From Mycobacterium noviomagense (GTDB lineage: Bacteria > Actinomycetota > Actinomycetes > Mycobacteriales > Mycobacteriaceae), in contig NZ_AP022583.1 of NCBI RefSeq assembly GCF_010731635.1, positions 3,968,001-4,032,000 of the forward strand: a stretch of 64,000 nucleotides of DNA, in the 5' to 3' direction. Shown piece by piece: positions 42,758-49,024 of this stretch. The first letter of the stretch is position 1; every line of letters begins with the position of its first letter. The notes under the pieces were generated by a model that worked only from the letters and a program-made list of their open reading frames with translations, had not been told where the DNA came from and did no database searches. Both the position numbers and the translations under genes were made by a program.

Positions 42758-43434
42758 CGATCCTGGTCGTAACCGGCACCGACACCGGAGTTGGCAAGAC
42801 GGTCGCGTGTGCGGCGCTGGCCTGCCACGCGCGGCAAGCCGGCGTCGACGTGGCGGTGTGCAAACCGGTGCAGACCGGAACCGATACCGGCGACGACGAC
42901 CTCGCCGACGTGGCCCGGTTGTCCGGGGTCACCGAGCTGGCCGGACTAGCCCGCTATCCGCAGCCGTTGGCCCCCGTGGCCGCCGCCCATAACGCCGGCA
43001 TGAGCCTGCCGACTGGTGACGAGATCGTCGCGCTGGTCCGCGGCATCGATCGCCCGGCACGGTTGACCCTGGTCGAAGGCGCCGGCGGGCTGCTGGTCGA
43101 GCTGGCGCGACACGGCATCACCTTGCGCGACCTCGCCGTCGAGCTGGCCGCTGCGGTGCTGGTCGTCGCCCGCGCCGAGCTGGGCACCCTCAACCACACT
43201 GCGCTGACTCTGGAAGCCCTTGCTGCACAAGGCCTTTCGTGTGACGGACTGGTGATTGGCAGCTGGCCGGCTCGCCCCGAGGCTGTGCACACCTTCAATC
43301 GGTGCGCGCTGGCGAAGCTGGCAGTAGTGCGGGCCGTGCTGCCTGCCGGGGCCGGGGCGATGGGCGCCGCGGATTTCGCCGCGATGAGCGCGCGAGCATT
43401 CGACCCGGACTGGGTGAGCGCGCTGGTCGGCTGA
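42754..43434 (+). CDS. bioD: Dethiobiotin synthetase
   Basis: A 226-residue P-loop ATPase that closes the ureido ring of dethiobiotin with CO2. The Walker A loop is GTDTGVGKT at residues 8-16, the substrate lysine is in [10 protein letters not shown], and the family block [11 protein letters not shown] is present. GTG 42754 overlaps the bioF stop (GTGA), and its own stop overlaps the next gene by one base (TGATG), so bioF, bioD and the phosphoesterase gene are translationally coupled. Confidence 0.95.
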
Positions 43435-43943
43435 TGGTTCACTCGATCGAGCTGGTCTTCGACGACGGCACCGAGGCGGCGATCCGCCGCATCTGGAACG
43501 ACCTTGCCGCCGCGGGCATCCCCAGCCAGGCGCCGGCCAGCCGCCCGCACGCGACCATGGCAGTGGCCGAGCGCATCGAGCCCGAGGTCGACGCACTGCT
43601 GGCGCCGGTAGTTCACCAGCTGCCGCGAGACTGCACCATCGGTGCGCCAGTGGTGTTCGGGCGGGCCAAGGTGGTGCTCGCCCGGCTGGTCGTGCCCACG
43701 ACGCAGCTGCTGTCGGTGCACGCGGAGGTGCACCGGCTGTGCCTGCCGCATATGGCGCCCAGCCCCATGGCCAACAGCACGCCCGGCAACTGGACCGCCC
43801 ATATCACGATGGCCCGCCGGGTGGGTGGCGCCCAGCTGGGACGGGCGTTGCGCATCGTCGGCCGGCCATCCGAAATCGCTGGCAGCATTACCGGTTTGCG
43901 CCGCTGGGACGGAAACAAGAAGGCCGAGTATCTAATCGGCTGA
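43434..43943 (+). CDS. 2H phosphoesterase superfamily protein (2'-5' RNA ligase-like, Rv1571 type)
   Basis: A 169-residue protein with the two HxT motifs that define 2H phosphoesterases: His39-Ala-Thr41 (RPHATMAVAE) and His123-Ile-Thr125 (WTAHITMARR), about 85 residues apart as usual. Members hydrolyse or form 2'-5' or cyclic phosphodiester bonds in RNA or nucleotides. It is the orthologue of Rv1571, annotated only as conserved hypothetical. Its ATG overlaps the bioD stop by one base, which ties its expression to biotin synthesis; no direct role in that pathway is known. It converges on the membrane operon seven bases away. Confidence 0.8.
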   Translation: MVHSIELVFDDGTEAAIRRIWNDLAAAGIPSQAPASRPHATMAVAERIEPEVDALLAPVVHQLPRDCTIGAPVVFGRAKVVLARLVVPTTQLLSVHAEVHRLCLPHMAPSPMANSTPGNWTAHITMARRVGGAQLGRALRIVGRPSEIAGSITGLRRWDGNKKAEYLIG

Positions 43944-43949
43944 CGCCGA

Positions 43950-45317
43950 CTATCCGCCGAACAGCAGATACAAACCGGTGAACGTGTAGCTGACCATGAC
44001 CAGCATCATCGTGAGCTGGCCGGTGAGTTGGTGACCCGCCGGCAGCAGCCGAAGGGCTCGGTCGTGGGCCGCGATGACCGCGACGATGTGACCGACGACC
44101 ACGCATGTCACCTTGATGCCCGCCAATACCGACGGGTGCATGGACAGCACATAGGCGACGTGCAGATGCGCCAGCCCCAGCACGTTCCAGCCCCGGCCGA
44201 ACGGGTCGGCGAGCGCGAAGACGGCCCGCTGGCCCCGCTCGACCAAATACGACAGATAGTGGGCGAAGATGTAGCCCACCACGATAGGGATCAGCGAGTG
44301 CGCCATCTGGCCAGGCAGCGCTCGGCGCTGCTCGCGGTCGACGCCGCCGGTGGCACGCGCGGCAAGCGAAAAGGTCAGCGCCACAACGGAAATGAACACC
44401 AACAACCCGATGCTGCGCAACACCGACGACGACACCGTCGGTGGCACCGCATGGGCGGCGCGCTCCAGTCCGTCGGCGAAGTTGCGCCACGTCGGTGAGG
44501 CCGAGTAGCTGTCGAATGCGGTCGACCCCAGCAGCACAGCCAGCATCGCGACGACCCCGGGCCGAACCGGCAGCGACGGCAGGTGGTCGAACGGGTTGCC
44601 GATGACGATCTGCCCGGAGACCGCGTTACGGCGAAACGGCGACAGCCGTGACACCGCCATGCTGTACACCCCGAACGGGTCGACCCGGGCCAGCCACCGC
44701 TGCCCGCACAGCCACGCCCCGGCCAGCAGCACCACCGTGTACACCAGCAGCCACGCCTTGACCGCGGGCAGTGATGCCGAGTTAGGGCTGGCCAGCTCCA
44801 TCCACACGAACGCAAACAGCCCCACGGCAGCCGGGCGATATCCCCAGCTTTCCGGATACGACAGTCGCGGCCGACGCAAGCGCTGCGGCGTGATGCACTG
44901 CAGCAGCAGATACACCGTGCGGACGGGGGAGAGCACCCGCCACACGGGTCCGAACAGCAGCGACAGCGCTACCAGGCCCACCCACAGCAGCACGTAGAAC
45001 GCCCCGAGCATGGCATTGTTCGGGGTTTGCGGACCGAGCACCCCGGCCAGCACCACCCACACCGCGAACACCAGCGCCACCGCGGCCGCCACCGCGCGGG
45101 TGACGCGGGCGTCGACCAGGGCGGTGATCACCTCCGGCAGCGGGCGGCCCGGCTTATCCGGGTCGAATCGCGGCTTTCGCCACGCGAACGCCACCAAAGC
45201 GAACGTGAACGTCAGCGCCCACGCCGCACCCACCACCGCGTAGGCGTAGGGCACCGGCAGATCGCTCGACCCGCCCAGACCATGCGCCAGTAGGTCAGTG
45301 GCGCCGGCCGCCCTCAC
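43950..45317 (-). CDS. Polytopic membrane protein of the type annotated as fenitrothion hydrolase; function unknown
   Basis: A 455-residue protein with about ten hydrophobic helices and no soluble domain. It resembles actinobacterial proteins that databases label fenitrothion hydrolase, a name transferred from a distant organophosphate enzyme; I treat the function as unknown. Histidines are concentrated in the C-terminal helices and loops: GQMAHSLIPIV, FAHYLSYLVERGQ, GLAHLHVAYVL, SMHPSVL, VVGHIVAVIAAHDRA. Such intramembrane histidines suggest haem or copper binding. The GTG start at 45317 overlaps the stop of the cupredoxin-like lipoprotein by four bases, so the two are made together. It is the last gene of the leftward operon. 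Confidence 0.7.
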   Translation of the reverse strand: MRAAGATDLLAHGLGGSSDLPVPYAYAVVGAAWALTFTFALVAFAWRKPRFDPDKPGRPLPEVITALVDARVTRAVAAAVALVFAVWVVLAGVLGPQTPNNAMLGAFYVLLWVGLVALSLLFGPVWRVLSPVRTVYLLLQCITPQRLRRPRLSYPESWGYRPAAVGLFAFVWMELASPNSASLPAVKAWLLVYTVVLLAGAWLCGQRWLARVDPFGVYSMAVSRLSPFRRNAVSGQIVIGNPFDHLPSLPVRPGVVAMLAVLLGSTAFDSYSASPTWRNFADGLERAAHAVPPTVSSSVLRSIGLLVFISVVALTFSLAARATGGVDREQRRALPGQMAHSLIPIVVGYIFAHYLSYLVERGQRAVFALADPFGRGWNVLGLAHLHVAYVLSMHPSVLAGIKVTCVVVGHIVAVIAAHDRALRLLPAGHQLTGQLTMMLVMVSYTFTGLYLLFGG

Positions 45318-45688
45318 GGGCGCACTTGGATTGTCGCGATCGTGCGGTCCAGGTGGTGTAGCTCGACTTCCACGTTGCCGGGGACGTCGACCTTGAATTC
45401 GAACTTCTGGTTGGGCGCTGCCGCGATCTGGAACTTGTGATCGGGCGACGAATGCACGTGCAGCTCGTCGGAGGCGTCACTGGTGACGTCGAAGGTGATC
45501 GGCGCGCCGACCTTGGCCTCGAACGTGGCATTGGTCGGCGTCACTTGACCCTTGCTGATGGTGACGTTGACCACGAGGGCACTCGGCGGCCCACCCTTGT
45601 TGGACGAACCGGCGCACCCGACCAGGCCCCAGATCAGCGTCGCGGCTGCGGCCGTAATGAGCGCCCCGCGAATCGCTTTCGCCAGCAT
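45314..45688 (-). CDS. Cupredoxin-like lipoprotein
   Basis: A 124-residue exported lipoprotein. The signal peptide (residues 1-24) ends in the lipobox LVGC with Cys25, followed by a Gly-Ser-Asn linker. The rest is a single beta-rich domain of cupredoxin type. Possible copper ligands are His77, His79 and His84 (ELHVHSSPDH) and His111-His112 near the C terminus (VELHHLDRTI); no cysteine ligand is present, so it would not be a classic blue copper site. The ATG at 45688 overlaps the stop of the upstream membrane gene by one base. It probably sits on the outer face of the plasma membrane beside its two polytopic partners. Confidence 0.75.
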   Translation of the reverse strand: MLAKAIRGALITAAAATLIWGLVGCAGSSNKGGPPSALVVNVTISKGQVTPTNATFEAKVGAPITFDVTSDASDELHVHSSPDHKFQIAAAPNQKFEFKVDVPGNVEVELHHLDRTIATIQVRP

Positions 45689-47544
45689 CACGCTGCCCGT
45701 GGAGGGGAGCGATCCGCCGCTTTCATCTCCTCCGGCTGCTTCGGAGCGACGTCGTGGCCGTTGATCCGGCCGGCGCCCCACGTCAGCGCCGAGATGACCA
45801 TGAGCGTGAAGATCAGTACCACGATCCCGCCCGCGGTGAACAGCCAGGCCGGCACGTTCGGGTCGCGTTCACGCTGCAGGATCGTGACCTCGAGCACGAA
45901 CGGACGGGAGCTGGTGGCCAGCGCGGGGATCTCGGGCGCCGGAATGGCGTCGTCAGCGGGCGCCCAGATCGGCACCGCCGTCATCGTCCTGCCGTCTTGC
46001 ACGCGCAGCAACGTCTTCCACGTTCCCCATACCGGAACCGGCTGGGTGGACTGGTAGTGCCCGGGTCCGACCGGCCTGAGCCAGTCGATCACCAGACCGC
46101 GGTGATCGCTCATCCGCCCCTGCCACGACAGGATCGTCAGCCAGTCCGGGTGCTTGCTGACCAGGTCGGGCGGATTGATCTGCACGTCGGCCGACACCAT
46201 GCGCCGCCCGGGCGGGCTCGGCAGGTCGGTCAGCTTGACCGTGGCAGTGTCGTGTTTCGGCACCCGGATATGCAGTCCGTTTGCCACCCCGGCGCCGATC
46301 ACCAGCACCGTGAGCGCCACGATGCCGATGCCGATCGCCCGGCTTGGCAGCCGTTGGCTGGTCAGCACCATGCCCAGCATCGCGCCGCACAGCCCGGTCA
46401 TCACCGCCGCGGGCACGGCCATCGCCAAGGCTTCGGGCCACAGGCTTACCGGCCATGGGTAGTGGTACACGGCGCCGATCCAAAGCGACTCCAGCCACAG
46501 CCCGATCGTGCCCACCGCCAAGCCGGAAACGGCGCCGAACAGCAGCGGGCGCCGCAACACCGGTGTAAGACCGAGCAACTCGACCACCACCGCTGGACCG
46601 AGATACAGCGGAAACCAGTTGATCGGAGCTCCCAGGATCGGCCCGACCAGCAGGGCGACGGCGCCGCGCAGGGCTATCGCGAACAGGGCCGCGATAATCG
46701 CCGCTCCGCGGCCCATCGTGATGCGCGCTGCGACGGACGCGACCGCCGCCGCCGCCGCGATCAGCATCGGCTGGAACACGAGCCGGAACTGCGGGACGCC
46801 GAAGTCGAACTCGATCTGCCAGACGGACATCCCGATGAACAGACCGCCGAACGACAGGTAACGCAGGAATTTGATGAACGGGCGCTCGGGTCTTGCGTAC
46901 GCGCCCTCGGCGGGCGTGTCCGGCAGCTCTCTCCCGCCTTCGTACTCCAGCATCAGTGCCGCGTAGAGGGAGAACCCTGCACCGCCGATCATCATCAAAT
47001 GGGTTGGGCCCCAGAGTGTGACATCCTGGCCGAAGATGCGATGCCAGATGTCGTCGAGCGGGAAGCCGATCAGCGCGTAGAGCCCGCAACCGGCCATCAG
47101 CACACCCCCGACCGGGGCATACCAGTCGCGGGTGATGCGAACAGCCGCCGGCCCAGGCCTGTCGAACGGCATCACCACCGCGATCATGCCGGCGAGGAAG
47201 ATGCCGAACAGCCCGATGACGATGAAGTAGTGGGCCGGGTTGGCCAGCGGGCCGGGATCGCGGCCATTGCCGATGTGCCAGCTGACGTCCCAGATGAAGC
47301 CGAACAGAGCGCAGATGATCGAGGTGGTGAACACCAGAACAGGCAGTGCTACCCACGCAGGGCGGTCGAATCTGTTCCCCATCCGCTCGCCGGCCCGGGC
47401 CAACCAGTTGATCCGGTGCGTGCGGTGCGCATATCCGATCCACAGCATCAATGCGGCTATCACCGCCGCAGCGATACTCAGCCCTATCACCTGATTGAGC
47501 CCGGCGCCACGCGCCGGTGCTTCCGCAATAACCGCTGAGCCCAC
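45688..47544 (-). CDS. Large polytopic membrane protein with two repeated Asp/His motifs and an extracytoplasmic beta domain; unknown
   Basis: A protein of 618 residues (620 if the ATG at 47550 is used). GTG 47544 is preferred because GGGAGG lies eight bases upstream of it and only two before the ATG. About eleven membrane helices fill residues 15-405. Two similar metal-like motifs follow each other: WDVSWHIGNGRD with a later NPAH (Asp86, His90, Asp96, His105) and DDIWHRIFGQD with a later GPTH (Asp165, His168, Asp174, His182). Residues about 410-560 form a beta-rich domain outside the membrane, with RPVGPGHYQSTQPVPVWGTW resembling FixH/YtkA-type copper-related domains, followed by one final helix. 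I cannot assign a known family. It heads the coupled three-gene unit. Confidence 0.7.
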   Translation of the reverse strand: MGSAVIAEAPARGAGLNQVIGLSIAAAVIAALMLWIGYAHRTHRINWLARAGERMGNRFDRPAWVALPVLVFTTSIICALFGFIWDVSWHIGNGRDPGPLANPAHYFIVIGLFGIFLAGMIAVVMPFDRPGPAAVRITRDWYAPVGGVLMAGCGLYALIGFPLDDIWHRIFGQDVTLWGPTHLMMIGGAGFSLYAALMLEYEGGRELPDTPAEGAYARPERPFIKFLRYLSFGGLFIGMSVWQIEFDFGVPQFRLVFQPMLIAAAAAVASVAARITMGRGAAIIAALFAIALRGAVALLVGPILGAPINWFPLYLGPAVVVELLGLTPVLRRPLLFGAVSGLAVGTIGLWLESLWIGAVYHYPWPVSLWPEALAMAVPAAVMTGLCGAMLGMVLTSQRLPSRAIGIGIVALTVLVIGAGVANGLHIRVPKHDTATVKLTDLPSPPGRRMVSADVQINPPDLVSKHPDWLTILSWQGRMSDHRGLVIDWLRPVGPGHYQSTQPVPVWGTWKTLLRVQDGRTMTAVPIWAPADDAIPAPEIPALATSSRPFVLEVTILQRERDPNVPAWLFTAGGIVVLIFTLMVISALTWGAGRINGHDVAPKQPEEMKAADRSPPRAA

Positions 47545-47666
47545 CGTCATCGCCTCCCAACCGCGCTGGGCCGCCCGAGAGCCTGACCGCCGAGCGGCGA
47601 CTTACTCCACGGTAGGTTACCGATCCGCCGTGACCTCAAACACAAAAATCGTCGAACCAGGCATCG

Positions 47667-47843
47667 TCACGTCGACTTGTCGCCGACCTCGGTCTTGTCG
47701 GCCTGATCTGCGCTGCGCCTGTCGCGGATCGCGACGTACAACACCACACCCACCACGATCACTGCCGGCAAAAACGCGGGCCCTGCCAGCAGGATCCAGT
47801 GATGAGCGAGATATTCCACCCGCAACTGGCTCATGGCGTCCAT
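47667..47843 (-). CDS. Small single-helix membrane protein (58 residues), unknown
   Basis: This frame was read directly from the minus strand. It begins MDAMSQLRVEYLAHHWILLA, has one hydrophobic helix (about residues 16-38) and a charged tail (RDRRSADQADKTEVGDKST). Nearly all codons end in G or C, which supports coding. His14-His15-Trp16 stand at the helix entry. A second ATG at 47834 is an alternative start. It lies 116 bp upstream of the large membrane gene on the same strand, so it may be a small subunit of the same complex, like the single-helix subunits of respiratory oxidases. No database match can be claimed. Confidence 0.55.
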   Translation of the reverse strand: MDAMSQLRVEYLAHHWILLAGPAFLPAVIVVGVVLYVAIRDRRSADQADKTEVGDKST

Positions 47844-47931
47844 TGATCGATTGATACAGGTGAACGTACCCCGCCCGCGACCATGTCATGCATCACGCGT
47901 CGCGCGTTTGTGTGGCGGCGCGCCCGTACCC

Positions 47932-47950
47932 TAACGTGAACACGGTTTAC
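47932..47950 (+). promoter_or_regulatory. Probable bioB promoter with BioQ-type operator
   Basis: TAACGT (47932-47937) fits the -10 consensus. Overlapping its last base is TGAAC-ACG-GTTTAC (47937-47950), a near-palindrome of the form TGAAC-N3-GTT(T)AC. The TetR-family repressor BioQ of M. smegmatis is known to bind such a box at biotin genes. No bioQ gene is in the window. Confidence 0.5.
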
Positions 47951-48004
47951 GCCGGCCACGGCGAGCCTGGCGAAGTTTTGTGTGCGAACACGAGGGAGTA
48001 CCGG

Positions 48005-49024
48005 GTGACTCAGGCGGCGACTCGGCCCACCACCGACATTCTGGCGGTCGCTCGCGAGCAGGTGTTGCAGCGCGGCGAGGGACTCAGCCGTGACCAGGTG
48101 CTGCAGGTATTGCAGCTGCCCGACGACCGGCTCGAGGAACTGCTTGCCCTGGCCCATGAGGTCCGAATGGCCTGGTGTGGGCCCGACGTCGAAGTGGAAG
48201 GCATCATCAGCCTGAAAACCGGTGGCTGCCCGGAAGATTGCCACTTCTGCTCACAGTCGGGGCTTTTCGCCTCGCCGGTTCGCAGTGCCTGGCTCGACGT
48301 TCCGAGCTTGGTAGAAGCGGCCAAGCAGACGGCGAAGACGGGAGCCACAGAATTCTGCATCGTGGCCGCGGTGCGCGGACCCGACGACCGGCTGATGGCA
48401 CAGGTCGCCGCCGGGATGGAAGCGATCCGCAACGAAGTCGACATCCACATCGCGTGCTCGTTGGGAATGCTCAGCGCCGAGCAGGTCGAGCAGCTGGCGG
48501 CGATGGGGGTGCATCGCTACAACCACAACCTTGAAACCGCCCGCTCGTTCTTCCCCAACGTCGTGACCACCCACACCTGGGAAGAGCGGTGGGACACCTT
48601 GTCGATGGTGCGCGAGGCCGGGATGGAGGTGTGCTGCGGCGGCATCCTGGGCATGGGGGAGACGCTGGAGCAGCGCGCCGAATTCGCCGCCGAACTCGGC
48701 GAACTCGGTCCGGACGAGGTGCCGCTGAACTTCCTCAACCCGCGGCCGGGCACACCGTTCGGCGACTTGGAGGTGCTGCCGGCCAGTGAGGCTCTCAAGG
48801 CGGTGGCCGCGTTCCGGCTGGCGCTGCCTCGCACGATGCTGCGGTTCGCCGGCGGCCGCGAGATCACGCTCGGCGACCTGGGTGCCAAGCGGGGCATGCT
48901 GGGCGGCATCAACGCCGTAATCGTCGGCAACTACCTGACCACGCTGGGCCGTCCGGCCGAAGCCGACCTGCAACTGCTCGACGATCTGCAGATGCCGATC
49001 AAGGCGCTCAACGCAAGCCTGTAG
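48005..49024 (+). CDS. bioB: Biotin synthase
   Basis: A 339-residue radical SAM enzyme that inserts sulfur into dethiobiotin. The radical SAM cluster motif is [12 protein letters not shown] near residue 72-79, and the residues that hold the second, sulfur-donating cluster are in the blocks [22 protein letters not shown] and [15 protein letters not shown] 48005 has GAGGGAG six bases upstream; the frame runs open to 47888 but that leader has no family similarity. It heads an operon with bsaP and a membrane gene. Confidence 0.97.

Follow-up and report, generated by a model that had tools for sequence, protein, structure and literature searches.

A conserved mycobacterial membrane gene set carries a duplicated hairpin resembling the CuC copper site of PmoC

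The described systems closest to the locus reported here are the PmoC/AmoC/HmoC proteins (PF04896), with copper sites that in PmoC we take to lie on the outer side of the membrane; the CopC/CopD pair; and FixH/CcoH, which helps build cbb3 oxidase. CuMMOs oxidize methane and ammonia at an active site that is still disputed, according to PMC12576850. The same paper gives the CuC ligands of PmoC as Asp156, His160, and His173 and the CuD ligands as Asn227, His231, and His245. Many pmo and amo operons also encode the cupredoxin copper protein PmoD/AmoD, as described in PMC6189053.

The window analyzed here is a stretch of 64,000 nucleotides from the Mycobacterium noviomagense genome (4,779,798 bases, one contig), in which four genes, D, C, B, and A, are all encoded on the minus strand. 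A preliminary description of this DNA had reported four same-strand genes with overlaps of 1 and 4 nt, two large polytopic proteins, and a 58-residue one-helix protein upstream, and each of these features was confirmed at the sequence level. Gene D (47667..47843, minus strand), encoding 58 amino acids with one predicted helix, lies upstream of C with a 116-nt spacer and no overlap. Gene C (45688..47550, minus strand) encodes 620 amino acids with about 13 predicted helices, the N-terminus outside and one periplasmic domain; its stop overlaps the start of B by 1 nt (TGATG). Gene B (45314..45688, minus strand) encodes a cupredoxin-like lipoprotein of 124 amino acids, and its stop overlaps by 4 nt (GTGA) the start of A (43950..45317, minus strand), which encodes a polytopic protein of 455 amino acids with about 10 predicted helices and the N-terminus outside. 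The closest homologues of C are in Mycobacterium, at 95% (from a MAG) and 88% (M. xenopi) identity; 6,635 homologues of C had E values of 0.001 or below.

The neighbors are those named in the preliminary description, with bioB (47888..49024, plus strand) on one side of the set and an Rv1571-like gene (43302..43943, plus strand; ORF as listed, the true start probably being later) and bioD on the other. We assigned these flanking gene names from sequence and order. In H37Rv, phiRv1 occupies the same bioB gap. phiRv1 corresponds to rv1573-rv1587 in PMC4779234. The order bioD, Rv1571-like gene, bioB is kept in six C-free genomes and in one with C elsewhere (L223-L229), and the bioB gap is about 0.5 to 1.7 kb in five of those seven. 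A gene that we take from its sequence to be PE_PGRS-like fills the gap in two C-free genomes (L223:12185-14964 and L224:11902-14703).

What is new here is that C contains a duplicated Asp/His hairpin, the first copy matching in sequence the CuC site of PmoC/AmoC. Given this PmoC-like copper-site motif, present twice in C, the set may be a copper-dependent membrane machine. We imagine a periplasm-facing copper membrane complex in which C would form the core, either as the catalyst or as the carrier of the metal, with A, B, and D as its partners or suppliers of copper, and we give this reading a probability of roughly 0.4. Copper may be the metal, the complex may be a physical one, and catalysis and the direction of copper flow may be as drawn below.

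The two hairpins lie within the first five helices of C, and charges predict that they face the side on which the N-terminus and the periplasmic domain of C are also found. Copy 1 (47230..47289, minus strand) includes D88, W91, H92, R97, D98, P105, and H107, and copy 2 (46999..47055, minus strand) includes D166, W169, H170, D176, P182, and H184, giving the ligand-like sets D88/H92/H107 and D166/H170/H184. The likeness in spacing between C and the CuC ligands of PmoC was noted before any AmoC sequence had been examined; AmoC genes were found in 3 of 119 actinobacterial genomes. One of the AmoC proteins (L216) reads D-G-S-W-H-Q-T-A-V-R-D-T-A-L-T-P-S-H, compared to D-V-S-W-H-I-G-N-G-R-D-..-P-A-H in C, so that D, W, H, R, D, P, and H are common to the first hairpin of C and of PmoC/AmoC. 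The CuC spacing is D-x3-H-x12-H, whereas the C protein analyzed here has x14 as its last interval and distant C proteins have x13 or x14. Copy 2 is D-x3-H-x13-H, compared to N-x3-H-x13-H for CuD. Both C and the PF04896 proteins have two hairpins of the type D/N-x3-H followed by P-x-H, in identical order, at an inter-site distance of 71 residues in PmoC, 74 in 25 of 26 AmoC alignment members, and 78 in C. The differences are also clear: C has 620 residues, compared to 236 to 289 for PmoC-type PDB chains; it has several more helices, a loop longer by 1 to 2 residues, Asp at the second site where PmoC has Asn, and a periplasmic domain that PmoC lacks; and no AmoA/AmoB relatives were found with it.

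The pattern D-x2-W-H-x5-D-x4-6-P-x-H (D..WH....xD.{4,6}P.H) occurred in 133 of 140 C frames and all 6 AmoC frames but in none of 20,666 other frames; in 76 of the 140 C frames, both copies fit it. A looser double pattern, [DN]...H.{10,12}P.H, was present in 127 of the 140 C frames, in 6 of 6 AmoC frames (and 25 of the 26 AmoC alignment members), and in 2 of the 20,666 others, both of which come from a single place that was counted twice and is not in frame with C. The six AmoC frames represent three genes, each seen twice; the background frames come from overlapping loci, so one gene may count two or three times, and L016, L046, and L222 are one place. Because the patterns were written after both families had been seen and the frames are partly redundant, these counts speak for specificity and are not a p-value. 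The duplication itself is present in most members. Its shuffle z score is 5.3 to 6.9 in close relatives (protein homologues, L002, and L031) and 7.1 to 12.3 in the distant L014-L025; in a middle group, L003-L012, it ranges from 0.2 to 4.0 (0.2 in L008, 1.1 in L012, 2.1 in L004 and L010), and we count this weakness against C as the core of a copper complex.

The values from profile searches were weak throughout. With an HMM of the AmoC CuC hairpin, C frames took ranks 1 to 6 among non-AmoC frames (three of them one place), with a best E value of only 0.32, and made up 70 of the top 100; an HMM of whole AmoC ranked C first (E, 0.17). The CuD-site HMM did not single C out, its best C frame ranking fifth and 27 of the top 100 being C. 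The reverse search was weaker, HMMs derived from C ranking AmoC 6th (copy 1; E, 6.7), 37th (copy 2), and 15th (both copies). Profile-profile alignment of C with AmoC falls on the hairpin and is not significant (P of 0.006 for distant C and 0.02 to 0.04 otherwise; HH probability of 1 to 6%). PF04896 is absent among the six families listed, at E values up to 1, for 30 C homologues, and no PmoC chain is among the 50 matches listed for each structure search, in which Foldseek candidates were compared. A scan of viral contigs for AmoC, made to widen the AmoC alignment, gave no matches. Given these weak values, we do not file C as a CuMMO subunit and say only that it possibly works like one.

None of the four proteins has a match above the cutoff in Pfam or NCBIfam, A and C having no match there at all, and only chance-level PDB sequence relatives were listed for A, B, and C. 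The alignment of C combined 23 C loci with 7 proteins, leaving out the window itself (L001), L006 (internal stop), L023 (near L024), and the partial L026-L030. In the predicted model of C (AF2 pLDDT, 84.4; pTM, 0.86), structure search matched residues 428 to 560 (45871..46269, minus strand), a periplasmic beta domain, to the fold of FixH/YtkA/CrdA. This domain resembles the periplasmic domains of FixH/CcoH, YtkA, and CrdA; it also aligns with the C-terminal part of CopD-type proteins. At the level of Pfam, FixH appeared below the cutoff in 3 of 30 C members (best E, 0.059), and YtkA was absent from the listed matches. For the membrane regions of A and C, fold searches gave no clear match, which is no proof that these folds are new. 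Comparison gave no support for a relationship between A and C.

We imagine that C works as follows. Each hairpin would present an Asp, a His, and a second His after the loop at the outer membrane face, in an arrangement like that of PmoC at its CuC/CuD pair, and the site would most likely be catalytic, acting through oxygen or redox chemistry on a substrate that is small or soluble in lipid. A, B, and D would supply or hold copper: B, lipid anchored, would hand copper to A or stabilize it; A would be a polytopic partner in which the conserved His, Glu, and Asp residues are within the membrane or close to it; and D would be a one-helix accessory subunit. C is perhaps, then, an oxygen-using enzyme, for which a monooxygenase-like activity is possible. 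A bolder version, that C founds a new and very distant CuMMO-like branch that retains the two PmoC copper hairpins, has a FixH/YtkA-like fusion, and acts with the new partners A, B, and D in most mycobacteria as a copper/oxygen enzyme on a host-cell lipid or small substrate, strikes us as somewhat unlikely.

In the Mycobacteriaceae, the genes travel as a unit. Our sample of named loci comprises the best 80 of at least 570 loci around C, and 76 of these best 80 have C, B, and A grouped. The exceptions within the sample are a lone C in L148, L152, and L154 and D plus C only in L112, a contig of just 3.8 kb; the strains of L148 and L152 are also represented with the full set (L131 and L132). D was detected in 67 of the best 80. 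Two genomic settings and two gene orders are found in this sample. The set adjoins bioB in 45 of the best 80 loci, comprising 42 with the order D-C-B-A, 2 in which D was not found (L107 and L143), and L112. The order C-D-B-A is seen in 24 of the 80, and 8 further loci of the 80, including L104 (a 4.8-kb contig), have C-B-A with neither D nor bioB found. Among L148-L181, 12 of 34 titles are Mycolicibacterium, and the fetched stretch contains a gene we take from its sequence to be nicotinamidase-like in 19 of 34 and one we likewise take to be glycogen-debranching-like in 24 of 34. Two settings and two orders among these best 80 of at least 570 loci suggest that the genes were moved or rearranged all together, with D shifting its place. 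The arrangement of C, B, and A exceeds chance.

Across the genus, a match to C is found in 104 of 148 genomes. In 101 of these the match looks like C itself, with one or two in-frame stops in 13 of the 101 best matches; the other three have a distant relative only (G284 and G293) or fragments only (G329). The fragments in G329, a 3.2-Mb genome (contig C72), contain stops, and the gene looks broken there. Distant relatives of C in G256, G257, G284, G293, G322, and G365 are frames of 377 to 580 amino acids, 29 to 32% identical to C over parts of the membrane region. The genome bearing the set has a second C gene (G000:C1:3743683-3745500; L031 and L032), 78% identical over residues 6 to 610, with neither A nor B as a neighbor. 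Downstream of this gene, the same strand encodes a protein with HAMP and guanylate-cyclase domains. A D-search match in L032 lies inside C in another reading frame and was excluded from the D counts.

Over the phylum, the picture is looser. In a survey of 246 actinobacterial genomes, C was found in 32, A in 43, and both in 12, more than expected by chance (p, 0.003). After removal of the seven genomes in which C and A are linked, both were present in 5 of 239 (p, 0.32), and we count this against C as the core of a copper complex. Six of those seven are Mycobacteriaceae; the seventh (G214; L033) shares only the class and has the whole set, and thus the link is not confined to the family. Outside the family, the set mostly splits, B staying with A and C having no detectable A or B, L033 being the exception. 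Profile search detected no A or B in 14 of 21 C loci (20 fetched loci plus the window), and of 20 A loci, drawn from 19 genomes including one of this genus, 12 have B next to A; across Actinomycetota, B-A is the unit that is retained more widely. The suggestion that the proteins are subunits of one complex, for which a gene-neighborhood search had been recommended, is thus favored by the linkage in Mycobacteriaceae (76 of the best 80 of at least 570 loci), and the association is not obligatory elsewhere, as the split loci and the p value of 0.32 indicate. C was present in only 1 of 72,556 plasmid records and so is not a usual plasmid gene. A role in anti-phage defense was rejected, none of the four proteins having been matched.

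The B-A pair is the basis for the alternative that survives best. In it, B and A would together play the part of CopC-CopD, as a periplasmic copper chaperone and a membrane transporter or metallation factor, and C would store copper or pass it to another membrane enzyme, much as FixH/CcoH helps with cbb3 oxidase; we consider such trafficking nearly as likely as an enzyme. In its favor, B-A is the pair retained most frequently (12 of the 20 A loci), and A has invariant H12, E174, D269, H353, H410, and H418, its conserved His, Glu, and Asp residues being placed within membrane helices or close to them. (The alignment of A comprised 25 frames of at least 380 amino acids and 4 proteins; L089 fell below this length, and only those matches to A with fetched surroundings were included.) Like CopC-CopD, B-A combines a small periplasmic copper-type protein with a His-containing polytopic protein, CopC genes are found next to A (L100) and next to the B-A pair (L101), and the periplasmic domain of C has its resemblance to FixH/CcoH and CrdA and its alignment with CopD-type proteins. 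However, A does not align with CopD (P of 0.35 when 30 aligned CopD-type frames were compared with hhalign), and B is cupredoxin-like rather than a CopC. C also occurs without A or B in the 14 loci mentioned above, no client was recognized among the few neighbors scanned, and the carboxylate-histidine hairpins of C are closer to an enzyme site than to known transport sites. A second A-B pair lies in L101:5531-9335 (G074), between a cytochrome oxidase subunit III gene and the CopC gene.

B had been described as a lipoprotein with a cupredoxin-type domain. The lipobox (LVGC, with its cysteine) is there, and the domain match is weak: Pfam Cupredoxin_1 scores B at an E value of 0.031 and 14.7 bits, compared to a cutoff of 27, and is also below threshold in 7 of 9 B relatives scanned, the best at 4.9e-6 and 26.9 bits compared to 27. 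An HxH (H77-V78-H79; 45452..45460, minus strand) and a Glu are invariant in 18 of 18 aligned sequences, in which, the lipobox of most aside, no Cys or Met of a blue-copper His-Cys-His-Met site is conserved. In having a cupredoxin-like protein, the set is like the operons with PmoD/AmoD; B differs in being a lipoprotein without the Cx7MxHxnC-type ligands given for PmoD/AmoD in PMC6189053. Comparison of B with AmoB (two sequences) matched the signal peptide only (P, 0.028), and A gave P values of 0.75 against AmoA and 0.67 against AmoB (two sequences each). That A and B showed no relation to AmoA/AmoB in these comparisons is counted against C as a copper core.

The neighbors of C elsewhere bear on the metal. 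In L046 (G140), a gene on the strand of C, with its end some 150 nt upstream of C, encodes a plastocyanin-type protein (Pfam Cupredoxin_1, 7.8e-8; Copper-bind, 3.3e-5; by eye, C-x4-H-x4-M and a lipobox), and in L048, of the same genus, a weaker relative (29% over 100 columns; E, 4e-4) adjoins the start of C on the opposite strand. MerR-type regulators are divergent beside C in L041 and L049 (two genomes, one genus). A MerR regulator is also near C in L037, and on the far side of the regulator L041 and L049 have a nitroreductase-family gene. The copper proposed in the preliminary description thus gains independent hints, from the PmoC-like motif, the FixH/YtkA/CrdA-like domain, and the CopC and plastocyanin-type neighbors.

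Asp/His sets bind many metals, and the hairpins could instead hold zinc, iron, or manganese, C and PmoC having converged on an Asp/His site of a common kind. According to PMC12576850, the CuC site can be occupied by zinc, and the profile statistics do not establish homology between C and PmoC. We nevertheless consider another metal improbable, since Trp, Arg, and Pro, which are not ligands, are also common to the two families in a pattern found in 0 of 20,666 other frames, and since the cupredoxin and CopC neighbors point to copper.

That A is a fenitrothion (organophosphate) hydrolase with the rest accessory is hardly credible: the name is on at least 2 of the 120 A homologues listed (P0137 and P0177), but no hydrolase family scored usefully, no clear fold match was found, two others of the 120 listed (P0130 and P0143) are called cation transporter-like permease, and of the three PMC papers that contain the phrase, none has it in its title or abstract or jointly with Mycobacterium. 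The automatic names of A therefore disagree. Three Pfam families at chance level in the 29 aligned members, none of them a hydrolase, and no NCBIfam family for A of the window leave no hydrolase signature in A; the label, which the preliminary description called probably misleading, gains no support and stays an unexplained database name.

No strong match of the set to a characterized complex was found, and a search of PMC titles and the beginnings of abstracts found no paper tying the set or C to a function. The set is conserved and apparently unstudied, and the motif makes its function testable. With C as the core of a copper complex, the PmoC copper pair would have a relative or mimic that is widespread outside recognized CuMMO operons, without PmoA/PmoB, and that would offer a second test system for the CuC/CuD pair; this would also hint at what an unnamed membrane protein, matched in 104 of 148 genomes of the genus, does in the cell. 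If C, A, and B traffic copper instead, they would be a new copper-handling family in mycobacteria.

The place of D varies between species. Its N-terminus (LAHHW) is predicted from charges to be outside and its basic C-terminus inside; only chance-level Pfam and NCBIfam matches were obtained, and relatives of D, detected in 67 of the best 80 of at least 570 loci, in most cases share a motif of the type (H/D)H..(L/W)LA.PAF.PA. Small one-helix proteins with an AH-G/H start follow A in L082, L084, L087, L092, L097, and L098 (6 of 19 A loci scanned). By eye, and over a short stretch, D and these proteins resemble small VAH/LAH-x-G one-helix proteins encoded soon after hmoB (L219:4246-4464 and L220:3047-3450) in hydrocarbon/ammonia-monooxygenase-type operons of Actinomycetota.
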